A DNA stretch of 48,579 nucleotides from Myxococcales bacterium (lineage in GTDB: Bacteria > Myxococcota_A > Polyangia > Polyangiales > Houyiibacteriaceae): the NCBI GenBank assembly GCA_029861865.1, contig JAOTYL010000017.1, positions 1-48,579 of the forward strand, read 5' to 3'. The translations under genes were made by a program, and so were the position numbers. Under the pieces are notes generated by a model. It made no database searches, had not been told where the DNA came from, and saw only the letters and a program-made list of their open reading frames with translations. This document shows positions 24,092 to 27,381 of this stretch, one piece after another (within the stretch, counting starts at the first letter, position 1; every line of letters starts with the position of its first letter).

Positions 24092-25249
24092 ATGGAAGCT
24101 CCAACGAAGGGTTATCTGTTCGAGACCGATGAGCATCGGGCACTCCGAGAGCAGGTGCGTCGATTCGCTGCAGCGGAGATCGCCCCAAACGCCCACGCCT
24201 GGGAAGAAGCGAACGAATTTCCGAGGGAGCTCTACTCGCGAGCTGCGAAAGCTGGTTTTCTCGGCGTCGGATATCCCGAAGAGCTCGGTGGTGACGGTGG
24301 AGATCTCGGCCATGTGCTCTGCGCTTCGGAGGAAGTAGTCCTGGCGGGCAAGTCGGTGGGCACTTGTGTGGGTCTCGGTAGCCACGGAATCGCGCTGCCA
24401 CCCATCGTGAGGTTCGGTAATGACGATCAGAAAGAGCGCTTCGTCAGGCCAACGCTCGCTGGGGACAAGATCGCCGCACTGGCCATTACCGAGCCCGGCG
24501 GTGGAAGCGACGTAGCCGCCGTCCGGACCAAGGCGGTTCGAGACGGTGACCACTACGTCGTGAACGGGGCGAAGACCTTCATCACCTCCGGCTGTCGCGG
24601 AGATTACATCACCACGGCGGTACGCACCGGTGGGGAGGGCCATGGCGGCATCTCGATGCTCGTGGTCGAGAGCGGCACTCCAGGCTTCAGCGTCTCCAGC
24701 AAGCTCAAGAAGACAGGTTGGTGGGCGAGCGACACCGCCGAGCTCATCTTCGAAGATTGCCGCGTTCCGGCCACCAATCTCATCGGTCAGGAGGGCACCG
24801 GCTTTCTGATGATCATGATGAACTTCGTCACCGAGCGCCTTTTCCTCGCCGGTCAATGTGTTGCGATTGCGGAGCTCGCGTATCGAGAGTCGGTGGCCTA
24901 TGCCAAGCAGCGACAAGCCTTTGGCAAGAACCTCGCGGGCTTTCAGGTCATCCGCCACAAGCTCGCCGACATGGCGACGCAGATCGCCGCGGCACGCGCC
25001 CTCACTGGCGAATGCGTCACCCGCTATTTGAACGGCGAAGAGACTCCATCTCTTGCTGCGATGGCGAAGAACGCCGCGACCGATATGTGCTCTGCGGTGT
25101 GCGACCAGGCCGTTCAGATTCACGGGGGTTACGGCTACATGCGCGAGTATGTGGTCGAGCGCCTTTACCGCGATGCCCGCCTGTACCCCATCGGCGGCGG
25201 TACGCGCGAAATCATGAACGAAATCATCAGCAAAGTAGAGGGTTACTGA
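24092..25249 (+). CDS. Acyl-CoA dehydrogenase (IVD/long-chain-type active site)
   Basis: FAD enzyme introducing the trans-2 double bond in an acyl-CoA and passing electrons to ETF. It has 385 residues with ITEPGGGSDVAAV, GAKTFITSG, the FAD/ETF-side RQAFGKNLAGFQ and a GGYGYMREYVVERLYRDAR end. The usual catalytic Glu of medium- and short-chain enzymes (YEGT) is replaced by Gly in PIGGGTREIM. Instead Glu238 in VTERLFLAG aligns with the base used by isovaleryl-CoA and long-chain dehydrogenases, so substrate is probably branched or long. It starts 31 bp after rpoC on the same strand, with no obvious promoter. Its stop overlaps the convergent hvfC-like gene by 7 bp. Confidence 0.9.
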   Translation: MEAPTKGYLFETDEHRALREQVRRFAAAEIAPNAHAWEEANEFPRELYSRAAKAGFLGVGYPEELGGDGGDLGHVLCASEEVVLAGKSVGTCVGLGSHGIALPPIVRFGNDDQKERFVRPTLAGDKIAALAITEPGGGSDVAAVRTKAVRDGDHYVVNGAKTFITSGCRGDYITTAVRTGGEGHGGISMLVVESGTPGFSVSSKLKKTGWWASDTAELIFEDCRVPATNLIGQEGTGFLMIMMNFVTERLFLAGQCVAIAELAYRESVAYAKQRQAFGKNLAGFQVIRHKLADMATQIAAARALTGECVTRYLNGEETPSLAAMAKNAATDMCSAVCDQAVQIHGGYGYMREYVVERLYRDARLYPIGGGTREIMNEIISKVEGY

Positions 25250-25980
25250 GAGTCAGCTCTCCCGCCTAGGACGATGCCACGTTCTAATGCATCCGCGATC
25301 ATGGCGGAGAGCTTCTCGACGAAGGCCGGGCCGATTTCGGTGCCGTGTACAGCTGCGACCTCGTGGACGGTCTCGGTGACCGACTTCGCGGCCCCTGTCC
25401 AGGCTTCGACGAGGCTCGCGGCGAGCGGGTTTAGCTTCCACGGGATCGGATTGTGGTGCTTGTCGCGGTAGACGCAGATGATGTTGGGTTCTTCTTCATA
25501 CCCGGAGGCGGGGGTTGGCTCGCGATGCACGGGATACGATAGCCGCAGCACCTGCAAAGCCGGGTTGAGGACCGGGATGCGGTCGAACGCAAACTCGCTC
25601 GTAGCGACTCGATTCGGTGGCGCGTACCGCACGTCCCATTTGGCGATTTCGTACCGCGCTAAATCCGAGAGCCATACGGGGTCCTGGTCGCGCCAGCTCG
25701 GAAGTGCAAACTCGAACAGCTCGCGGGGGAGATGACGGAAGTATCGAGTCTTAGGGCCACCCGTGGCAAGCCACTCGTCGATCGCGCGCTGAAAAGCCTG
25801 GTCTCCCGCCACGCGCTTGGTGCGGGCCAACGCAACACCGATGACGTTGATCAATCTGCTGCGTACCAGGTCTCTGTAGACGAGCCAACGTTCTCTCGAC
25901 CCCAAGGCAGTCAGGTCGGCTTCGCTCGGTTCGAGGTCGAAGCAAACGTGCTGCATCGCTCTGAGTCGGTCAGCTAGCAC
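25243..25980 (-). CDS. HvfC/DUF2063-like RiPP maturation partner protein
   Basis: A 245-residue protein placed after a DUF692/MNIO gene. The N-terminal half is helical, with RERWLVYRDLVRSRLINVI, a diverged form of the RxxVYRxN start of the DUF2063 family. The middle has a DLARYEIAKWDVRYA-type helix and a beta-strand part ending in LSYPVH. The C-terminal 75 residues (about 168-242: WKLNPLAASLVEAW, then a TVHEVAAVHG helix and DALERGIVLG) look like a PqqD-type winged-helix RiPP recognition element. It probably presents the peptide at 26891-27121 to the MNIO enzyme. The start is GTG at 25980, overlapping the MNIO stop by 11 bp; ATG at 25956 is an alternative. Fold calls are by eye. Confidence 0.75.
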   Translation of the reverse strand: MLADRLRAMQHVCFDLEPSEADLTALGSRERWLVYRDLVRSRLINVIGVALARTKRVAGDQAFQRAIDEWLATGGPKTRYFRHLPRELFEFALPSWRDQDPVWLSDLARYEIAKWDVRYAPPNRVATSEFAFDRIPVLNPALQVLRLSYPVHREPTPASGYEEEPNIICVYRDKHHNPIPWKLNPLAASLVEAWTGAAKSVTETVHEVAAVHGTEIGPAFVEKLSAMIADALERGIVLGGRADSQ

Positions 25981-26812
25981 GCTTCTCTCCCGTTGCGCCC
26001 TCGTAGATCGACCACAGCTGATCGATCTCCGCCAACAGCTCTTCCAGCGCCGGCACGTTGTTGTCGCGCTCGAGCAACACCGGCACTGGTCCTACCTTTC
26101 GTAATGCATACTCGAGCAGTCGGTACACATCGTTGGGAACCGGCTCACCATGGGTGTCGATTCGAATCCCGTCATCCCGCACCAAGTGGCCGGCCACGTG
26201 GATCTGGACGACTCGGTCGATCGGGATCTTATCGATGTAGGCCTCGGGATCAAAGCCGAAATTTCGTGCATTCACATAGATGTTGTTGACGTCGAGCAAG
26301 AGCTTGGCATCGGCTCGTTCGAGGACTTCGAGTACAAAGTCGGCCTCATCCAAACCATTGGCGGCCTGTGGCGCGTAGTAGCTGACGTTTTCCAGGGCGA
26401 TAGGCACGTCGAGGGCGTCGCGCATTTCACAGATACGCTGCGCCGACGTTGCTACCGCCTCGTCGGTAAAGGGTAGCGGTAGGAGGTCATGGAAGAAGTG
26501 AGTATTCACCGCACCAATGCAAAGGTGCTCGCTGTGCCACGGCACCTCGAGGTCGTTCAGAAGACCTCGCAGATCGTTTGCGTAATCCTCATCCAACGGC
26601 TCGAGCGCGCCAAAGCAAGTGCTAAGCCCATGAGTGACTACCGGCCAATCCTCTCTCGCGAGGTCGAGAATCTCTGCGTAGCGCCCGCCGCGGCCTAGGT
26701 AGTTTTCGGGATGAATCTCGACCCACGAAACGCCCTTCGGTCGTCGTTCGAGAAGCTCCGTCGCCAAATCGTAACGAAGGCCGAGCCCAATTCCATTTAT
26801 TTCATTGGTCAC
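25970..26812 (-). CDS. DUF692/MNIO (HvfB-like) peptide-modifying iron oxygenase
   Basis: Multinuclear non-heme iron enzyme of the DUF692 family, TIM-barrel fold. Known relatives (MbnB, HvfB) oxidise peptide cysteines using oxygen. Of 280 residues, the conserved polar set is visible: HPEN at 34-37, THGLS with His61, HSEH at 93-96, EN at 141-142, LLLDVNNIYVNA with Asp174, QIHVAGH with His205 and His209, DTH at 219-221 and LLERD with Glu248. The preferred start is GTG at 26812. The frame is open to an ATG at 26857, but those 15 extra codons coincide with a strong terminator-like hairpin and add no family sequence. It lies between the candidate precursor peptide gene and its partner gene. Confidence 0.92.
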   Translation of the reverse strand: MTNEINGIGLGLRYDLATELLERRPKGVSWVEIHPENYLGRGGRYAEILDLAREDWPVVTHGLSTCFGALEPLDEDYANDLRGLLNDLEVPWHSEHLCIGAVNTHFFHDLLPLPFTDEAVATSAQRICEMRDALDVPIALENVSYYAPQAANGLDEADFVLEVLERADAKLLLDVNNIYVNARNFGFDPEAYIDKIPIDRVVQIHVAGHLVRDDGIRIDTHGEPVPNDVYRLLEYALRKVGPVPVLLERDNNVPALEELLAEIDQLWSIYEGATGEKRAS

Positions 26813-26821
26813 TTGGAAGAC

Positions 26822-26853
26822 AAAGCCGCGACGACCATTGTCGCCGCGGCTTT
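26822..26853 (-). terminator. Attenuator-like hairpin between peptide gene and MNIO gene
   Basis: A 14-bp stem with a single G-U wobble (26853-26840 with 26835-26822) and a 4-base loop, ending GGCTTT and followed in the minus-strand transcript by GTCTTCC. It lies 38 bp after the stop of the small peptide gene and ends 10 bp before the GTG proposed as the MNIO start. Form and place fit partial termination that would give a high ratio of precursor to enzyme. Confidence 0.7.
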
Positions 26854-26890
26854 CCATATCATGCCGCTCGAGAAGCAGCGCAAGCTTTCG

Positions 26891-27121
26891 TTACTTGGCG
26901 CCGCAGCTACCTTCGCCGCACGAAGCCTCAGATGCTTCGTCCATGGCTTCGCCCGCCGCCTCTTCAGCGTCGGCTGCAGCTGCTTCTGCGTCAGCCGCGG
27001 CCTCTTCGGCACCGGCTGTAACCTCAGCCGCGTCCGGACCATCATCCGACTTGCATGCTGCAGTCACGCTCAGCGCCGCCGTCGCCATTGCGATGATCGT
27101 GTGCTTGAGTGCTGAATTCAT
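26891..27121 (-). CDS. Candidate bufferin/HvfA-like RiPP precursor, lipoprotein type
   Basis: A 76-residue peptide. Residues 1-22 form a signal sequence with a hydrophobic core (IIAMATAALSV). Cys23 follows Ala-Ala in a lipobox-like context, so it may be lipidated. Residues 28-66 are almost only Ala, Glu, Asp and Gly in a helical pattern. The C-terminus is SCGEGSCGAK, with Cys68 and Cys73 in a C-G-E-G-x-C-G arrangement that matches the EGKCG-type core repeats of HvfA/bufferin peptides, whose cysteines are converted by MNIO enzymes. It is first in a minus-strand run with the MNIO and partner genes. ATG at 27121 is preceded by AGAGGGTAGAGAAC. Composition differs sharply from its neighbours. Only the operon and the motif support the function; there are just two core cysteines. 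Confidence 0.8.
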   Translation of the reverse strand: MNSALKHTIIAMATAALSVTAACKSDDGPDAAEVTAGAEEAAADAEAAAADAEEAAGEAMDEASEASCGEGSCGAK

Positions 27122-27138
27122 AGTTCTCTACCCTCTTT

Positions 27139-27167
27139 CATATAAGCGCATCACTCGGGACTGTCTT
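27139..27167 (-). promoter_or_regulatory. Candidate promoter of the peptide-MNIO operon
   Basis: On the minus strand AAGACA (27167-27162), a 17-bp spacer and TATATG (27144-27139) lie just upstream of the peptide start. The match is partial (GACA in the -35, TATA in the -10) and the leader would be only about a dozen bases. I found no ECF-sigma-type element, although related operons are often under ECF control. The rest of 27168-27381 shows nothing clear except TATATT at 27367-27372 just before the plus-strand gene. Confidence 0.35.
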
Positions 27168-27381
27168 TCGCCCGCGATGCAATGCGGTGATAGGGACCAA
27201 TCCCGCACCCCCGCTTCTCAAGGACGCACGCTAGCCAAACGGTTGGCGCGTCGCAAACCGAAAGCGTGATGCGCGTGACGAACGAGGATACGCCCCTCCG
27301 GGGTCGATGTTTCGCAGAGCTTCGAGATCGCCCCTGGTCATCCGCGAATAATACCCCATAGATTCCATATATTTACGCGTG

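Follow-up and report, generated by a model that had tools for sequence, protein, structure and literature searches.

Does the gene trio on the minus strand of a myxobacterial contig form a genuine operon for a ribosomally synthesized and post-translationally modified peptide (RiPP), and what would such an operon make? We addressed this question in the 48,579-nucleotide contig JAOTYL010000017.1 of Myxococcales bacterium (GenBank assembly GCA_029861865.1), the whole of which is called the window here. A first-pass annotation, made from the letters alone, had proposed a short cysteine peptide, an MNIO enzyme and a small partner protein, and our analysis confirms the three genes at 25243-27121 of the minus strand, in the order 76-residue precursor, MNIO and 245-residue partner. 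The trio is a real, conserved operon of a known class, that of the oxazolins and bufferins and now also of the captophorins, in an undescribed Ser-Cys, lipoprotein-type variant with a predicted extracytoplasmic function (ECF)-type promoter. Its features are as follows.

26891-27121, minus strand: precursor peptide of lipoprotein type, 76 residues (open reading frame, alignment of homologues, NCBIfam HvfA model NF050137)
27053-27121, minus strand: signal peptide with lipobox TAAC and putative lipid-attachment Cys23 (invariant in 23 aligned homologues; ratio of nonsynonymous to synonymous polymorphism, pN/pS, 0.16)
26900-26929, minus strand: core EASCGEGSCG, two five-residue repeats with Cys68 and Cys73 (S67, C68, G69, C73 and G74 invariant in 23 homologues)
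26822-26853, minus strand: hairpin in the gap between precursor and enzyme, with a 14-bp stem and a 4-nt loop (-25.1 kcal/mol)
25970-26812, minus strand: MNIO (MbnB_TglH_ChrH / HvfB-like), 280 residues, probable GTG start (PF05114; homologue of 3BWW; start placed by alignment)
25243-25980, minus strand: partner, PME type 1 (DUF2063 plus RiPP recognition element, RRE/NGO1945_C), overlapping the end of the MNIO gene (Pfam, AlphaFold2, PDB match)
27289-27314, minus strand: putative ECF-sigma-type promoter CGAAAC-N16-CGTA, with -35 GAAAC and -10 CGTA (motif conservation)
27122-27288, minus strand: long 5' leader of the precursor transcript (genus-level alignment)

The two proteins that follow the precursor place the system in its class. 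The enzyme scores 310 bits against PF05114 (cut-off 25), has 3BWW (4e-53) and TglH as homologues, and carries the His/Glu/Asp set ascribed to it at first pass: the ligand-type residues H76, H111, E156, D189, H220, D234, H236, E263 and D265 are invariant in 19 relatives, and the catalytic Asp is likewise kept. Among curated families it lies nearest to HvfB (292 bits, cut-off 360) and BufB (278 bits, cut-off 310); judged by sequence, it belongs to the right group but is divergent. The partner, encoded directly after the MNIO in an overlapping gene, contains DUF2063 (36 bits) and NGO1945_C/RRE (38 bits), each against a cut-off of 27, and its AlphaFold2 model, built on an alignment of 41 sequences, has a predicted local distance difference test score of 95.7. 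The best PDB match of this model is NGO1945 (3DEE; E 9.3e-08; template modeling score 0.80 on the target), followed by TglI, and by sequence and predicted fold we assign the partner to PME type 1 in the sense of PMC12452194. The marks of the MNIO-PME1 class are thus all found at the locus, namely PF05114 with its ligands, an NGO1945-fold partner after the MNIO and a signal-bearing cysteine precursor before it, and the domain and model results support the system class first proposed, an MNIO with a DUF2063/RRE protein and a Cys-core peptide of HvfA/bufferin type.

The precursor, MNSALKHTIIAMATAALSVTAACKSDDGPDAAEVTAGAEEAAADAEAAAADAEEAAGEAMDEASEASCGEGSCGAK, consists of a lipobox signal, an acidic stalk rich in Ala, Glu and Asp, the core EASCGEGSCG and a final AK, with 16 Asp or Glu residues versus 2 Lys in the 54 residues of its mature part. 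The proposed length of 76 residues stands, but the peptide ends in CGEGSCGAK and not in CGEGSCG. Its lipoprotein-type signal is borne out by the canonical lipobox TAAC, whose Cys23 is invariant across 23 aligned precursors together with S67, C68, G69, C73 and G74. Low pN/pS values in the signal (0.16), the mature N-terminus (0.15) and the last core (0.11) indicate that the peptide is translated and selected. Against the HvfA domain NF050137 the window precursor scores 17.4 bits (cut-off 19.5), and 13 of the 23 homologues match this model, the best at 2.9e-06.

The core does not hold EGKCG repeats: ExSCG occurs twice, with no core Lys preceding a Cys, as the annotated replacement of Lys by Ser had implied. 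Its C68-GEGS-C73 unit fits the CxxxxC spacing of the family in PMC12452194, a spacing that is also inherent in EGKCGEGKCG. The minimal substrate of FonBC is EAKCGEGKCG, a single repeat being left unmodified; each Cys loses 4 Da to become a 5-thiooxazole, the position before Cys may also hold Ala, Arg or Thr, and the one after it preferably holds Gly (PMC13097082). Since the window core differs from this substrate only by Ser in place of each Lys, the "single core" of the first-pass annotation is really a minimal double repeat, EASCG-EGSCG, and the precursors of relatives bear two to six such cysteines. Throughout the myxobacterial set the residue before Cys is Ser (or Asn, Gly) and hardly ever Lys, and the lipobox is present clade-wide. 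Ser is not exclusive to myxobacteria, as the Gammaproteobacterial precursors L045, L048 and L052 mix EGKCG with EGSCG. The L022 precursor (genome G027) carries SPGKCAAGKCAG plus QASCGENSCG, that is, Lys-Cys and Ser-Cys units together.

The trio is conserved across the myxobacterial order, at the level of Polyangiales. The MNIO was matched in 52 of 58 related genomes, a lipoprotein precursor directly precedes it in nearly every locus read (in tandem copies in two relatives, L017 and L020), and the search of relatives for the same trio, suggested at first pass, recovered the order precursor-MNIO-partner repeatedly. Within the window's family, 33 genomes divide into 28 with both the precursor and the orthologous MNIO, three with neither and two with only one (Fisher p 0.003; one ambiguous genome is omitted from the tally). 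The recurring gene order, the breadth of MNIO occurrence and the purifying selection on precursor codons argue that the trio is not a chance arrangement, and homologous loci, checked for absence of the peptide or of its CGEGxCG end, did not overturn the proposal.

Upstream of the precursor, alignment within the genus reveals an invariant GAAACAT and, 16 bases past GAAAC, a nearly invariant CGTA, separated by unconserved letters. A scan of the 4.2-Mb genome for YGAAACAT-N14-CGTA gave three sites, and the control gave zero: one site precedes the window precursor, another a second, orphan precursor, and the third falls within a coding sequence. This third site (C18:63421) was rejected as a regulon member, as the sequence around it codes for a phosphatase (LKHFNRG). 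Outside the genus, the strict genus-derived form YGAAAC-N16-CGTA is found before 6 of 25 precursors (0.014 expected by chance), and a degenerate form, picked after the data had been seen, precedes 16 of the 25 versus 2 of 466 control stretches; at spacings other than 16 the degenerate form was found once or not at all. By its sequence the motif has the architecture of an ECF-type sigma promoter, of which the consensus of the stress sigma factor SigW, TGAAAC-N16,17-CGTA, is an example (PMC2375139). Such control fits the class, because genes for sigma and anti-sigma factors are part of Buf1 bufferin clusters (PMC12452194). Neither kind of gene is present among the examined neighbors of the operon, and a search for the sigma factor by autoregulation found the motif upstream of none of 14 Sigma70_r2 genes. 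The 5' leader of about 165 nt is conserved within the genus (GGGATTGGTCCC, GCTAGCGTG, TTGCATC...GATGC), and the orphan gene is without it. A structured RNA in this leader was considered and rejected, with one compensatory pair in 24 and a covariation term of +0.29; Rfam gave no match there.

A second regulatory candidate lies in the gap from the precursor's stop codon to the MNIO gene, where all 22 loci have a strong hairpin, mostly of 14-20 bp with a 4-nt loop. A perfect stem of at least 12 bp is found in 21 of the 22, and among the controls a stem of 11 bp is reached in 15 of 1552 windows. Stem sequences vary among genera while pairing is kept. The hairpin may be an attenuator or a processing element that yields excess precursor. 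It also bears on the enzyme's start, which is probably GTG 26812 and not the listed ATG 26857, because the hairpin at 26822-26853 separates this ATG from the GTG where relatives' proteins begin.

The orphan precursor lies on contig 6 (G000:C6:408509-408739, equivalent to L164:6010-6240, minus strand) and has the cores EASCGEGNCG and EASCGEGSCG. The same ECF-type motif stands 41 nt ahead of its first possible start, and there is no MNIO gene near it. A counterpart exists in genome G018, and the copy in a close relative (L165:5113-5343, plus strand) again has the promoter motif and no MNIO nearby. Because a genome-wide search found no MNIO gene other than that of the window, the orphan precursor is probably modified in trans. 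The genus further holds a Cys-less paralogous lipoprotein (MSSILKYLVIGTAMLALSLSAACKEDASPAAQEVTAGAEAG...AAASEVVN; L167:4995-5234, minus strand, and L168, L171-L176), which shares the signal and linker and has neither core nor promoter.

Taken as a whole, these features make it probable that the operon is of oxazolin/captophorin type and yields a tethered periplasmic peptide that binds copper through 5-thiooxazoles at Cys68 and Cys73. We infer chemistry, lipidation, location and copper binding here, with modification, lipidation and copper carried over from characterized family members. An ECF-type sigma factor would transcribe the operon, and the hairpin past the precursor gene would cause the precursor to be made in excess of the enzyme. 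The RRE of the partner would hold the precursor, with the signal peptide and first mature residues serving as leader; modification of HvfA is poor when the signal peptide is missing (PMC13419390), which agrees with the low leader pN/pS here (0.16, against 0.32 in the Cys-less paralogue). The MNIO would then oxidize Cys68 and Cys73, each within E-x-S-C-G, by four electrons to 5-thiooxazoles with free thiols. After export via Sec, lipidation at Cys23 and cleavage by signal peptidase II, this peptide would remain anchored and face the periplasm; there its pair of modified cysteines, carried on an acidic Ala/Glu-rich stalk, would bind copper(I). The second precursor, encoded on the other contig, would be modified by the same MNIO.

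As to location, in Myxococcus xanthus Lys at +2 marks inner-membrane lipoproteins (8 of 12), and Ala at +7 marks those of the extracellular matrix (PMC3222651). The window's genus has Lys at +2 and Pro at +7, so that by this rule, which was derived in a different family of the phylum, a periplasm-facing inner-membrane anchor is predicted, and for this genus the surface display suggested at first pass is unlikely. The location may differ in other genera, where +2 is Gly or Asn.

The nearest described systems share the plan and differ in its details. HvfABC(X) of nontypeable Haemophilus influenzae (oxazolin) has the same gene order, with a signal-bearing Cys-repeat precursor, an HvfB-type MNIO and a DUF2063-RRE partner, but its HvfA has three AEGKCGEGKCG motifs and an ordinary Sec signal, and the cluster includes a DoxX gene (PMC13419390); the window has ExSCG twice, a lipobox, no DoxX and the ECF-type motif. 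NedABC of Neisseria dentiae (a lipidated oxazolin, or DAG-RiPP) likewise joins a lipoprotein signal to Cys repeats for an MNIO, and NedA is tri-acylated and modified at three EGKCG motifs to a -12 Da product (PMC12636315), so a lipidated RiPP is not new and the lipobox is not the atypical trait that it was first taken for. NedABC differs in these three EGKCG motifs and in phylum, and the text of PMC12636315 reports no orphan precursor or ECF-type promoter. Fontiphorin, from FonABC of Fontimonas thermophila (a captophorin of the Lys-Cys group), is made by an MNIO and PME1 partner from EAKCGEGKCG, compared with EASCGEGSCG here (PMC13097082); it differs in being Lys-Cys, is not described as lipidated, and depends on an FonB whose Arg16 and Phe250 are Tyr and Asn in the window enzyme. 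The bufferins Buf1 and Buf2 (Caulobacter, Legionella and others) also pair an MNIO with a DUF2063-RRE protein to give Sec-exported, copper-chelating peptides, about 16% of Buf2 being predicted lipoproteins (PMC12452194), yet precursor family, number of cysteines and motif differ, and the window operon has no sigma or anti-sigma gene beside it.

The groups described so far are Lys-Cys, Cys-Lys and DUF2282 (PMC13097082). Myxococcota are unmentioned for a Ser-Cys branch in the main text of PMC12452194, whose supplementary tables may list members, and PMC12636315 names the phylum solely for ChrH-type enzymes; a literature text search for EGSCG and CGEGSCG gave no match in MNIO papers among the top 6 of 17 matches listed. 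New here are the ECF-type promoter motif, the hairpin between precursor and enzyme and the orphan second precursor in a genome with one MNIO, which, with the enzyme co-variation treated below, go beyond the first-pass annotation. Published work on EGKCG-type copper RiPPs centers on Pseudomonadota, and the texts of the three main papers leave out the myxobacterial branch. This branch offers a natural test of the role of the residue before the modified Cys and of how the enzyme adapts to it, as well as an instance in which a single enzyme would act on precursors encoded at separate loci. The testable promoter motif could lead to the sensing sigma factor, and hence to the stress that the peptides answer, and membrane anchoring in social, predatory bacteria raises the question of where the metal is held.

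Several observations weigh against a copper-binding 5-thiooxazole peptide. DoxX and copper genes are absent beside both the window precursor and the orphan precursor; precursor, MNIO and partner all score under the NCBIfam HvfA/HvfB/HvfC equivalog cut-offs; substrate-contact residues of FonB are changed in the window enzyme; and mmr of Microbulbifer, a close EGKCG system, is unresponsive to copper, its authors hesitating over copper protection (PMC12538549). The lack of copper genes nearby would also suit a system of the same kind directed at another metal (zinc, cadmium, mercury) or at redox or envelope stress, as would the closeness of the promoter motif to the SigW consensus, the strongly acidic mature peptide left by the Lys-to-Ser exchange, and the fusion of some bufferins to MerC (PMC12452194). 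We nevertheless regard this as unlikely, given that every characterized thiooxazole peptide of MNIO-PME1 clusters binds copper (PMC13097082).

The altered substrate pocket raises the matter of the product. In FonB the substrate is contacted at Glu1 and Lys3/Gly5 by Arg16 and Phe250, two residues that Lys-Cys MNIOs conserve (PMC13097082). The Lys-Cys signature of Arg15-Arg16 and Phe250 is replaced in the window enzyme by R28-Y29 and D265-N266, equivalents placed by alignment with FonB Asp249 taken as the Asp of the ERD motif. The Gammaproteobacterial and Bacteroidota MNIOs collected have Arg or Lys at position 16 and almost all have Phe or Tyr at 250; those of the Ser-Cys clade have Tyr, Val, Met, His, Ile and others at the former position and Asn, Gly, Gln, Ser or Asp at the latter. 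On the MNIO tree this clade is split from the other group with 99% support. Phe250 changes just twice on the tree, at this split and in L086, and Ser-rich repeats are found next to enzymes with Phe250 or Tyr250 as well, so the joint loss of core Lys and Phe250 is suggestive only; a statistical proof of co-variation was dropped, two changes being too few for a test. In L086 (Gammaproteobacteria, CSSed165cm_31) the precursor repeats are QCGEGTCGEGTCG, with Thr for Lys, and the MNIO has Asn for Phe250, an independent instance of the same pairing.

These losses, and a Ser before Cys that never varies at one of the two sites and hardly at the second, could mean that the Ser-Cys clade makes something other than a 5-thiooxazole, such as an oxazolone-thioamide or a product involving Ser67/Ser72. 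They do not imply it, because the FonB variants F250A, F250D and R16A still yield 5-thiooxazole (PMC13097082), and with the catalytic Asp kept and the EGSCG repeats of L045 and L052 sitting by Phe250 enzymes, we judge a different product improbable. That the peptide is an ordinary small lipoprotein beside an MNIO pair by chance, the true substrate lying elsewhere, is very improbable: the Cys-less paralogue has a very similar signal and linker, but it is without the promoter, whereas the precursor has an invariant core under purifying selection, directly precedes the MNIO in nearly all loci read, tracks its presence across genomes, and has relatives that match HvfA models.

Beyond the copper-binding tethered peptide that we favor, a broader proposition can be put forward tentatively: MNIO RiPPs would include a Ser-Cys branch that is ancestral in Polyangiales and lipid-anchored throughout the order, with a pocket re-shaped for Ser and possibly another product or metal, and in this branch ECF-controlled precursors at several loci would share one MNIO and form an envelope metal buffer.

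The genes surrounding the operon are housekeeping genes, named from sequence as rpoC, acyl-CoA dehydrogenase, thymidine phosphorylase-like and RNase R-like. The named relatives are uncultured Myxococcales, 'Deltaproteobacteria' and Polyangiaceae, including Myxococcales bacterium SG8_38. Genome G030, a draft 93% complete, has a precursor with four GGCG/GSCG units near RNase R (L180:4543-4779, plus strand) and no detected MNIO. At the myxobacterial MNIO loci L128, L129 and L136, the enzyme is preceded by lipoprotein-type peptides with GCAGCP/DAGC arrays, unlike Buf1, Buf2 or EGKCG, which possibly form a further precursor family. Other MNIO loci in the order (L134, L135, L130 and L143) have lipoprotein-type precursors resembling CKGQNxCKGQGGCK, of a Buf2/Cys-Lys-like kind.

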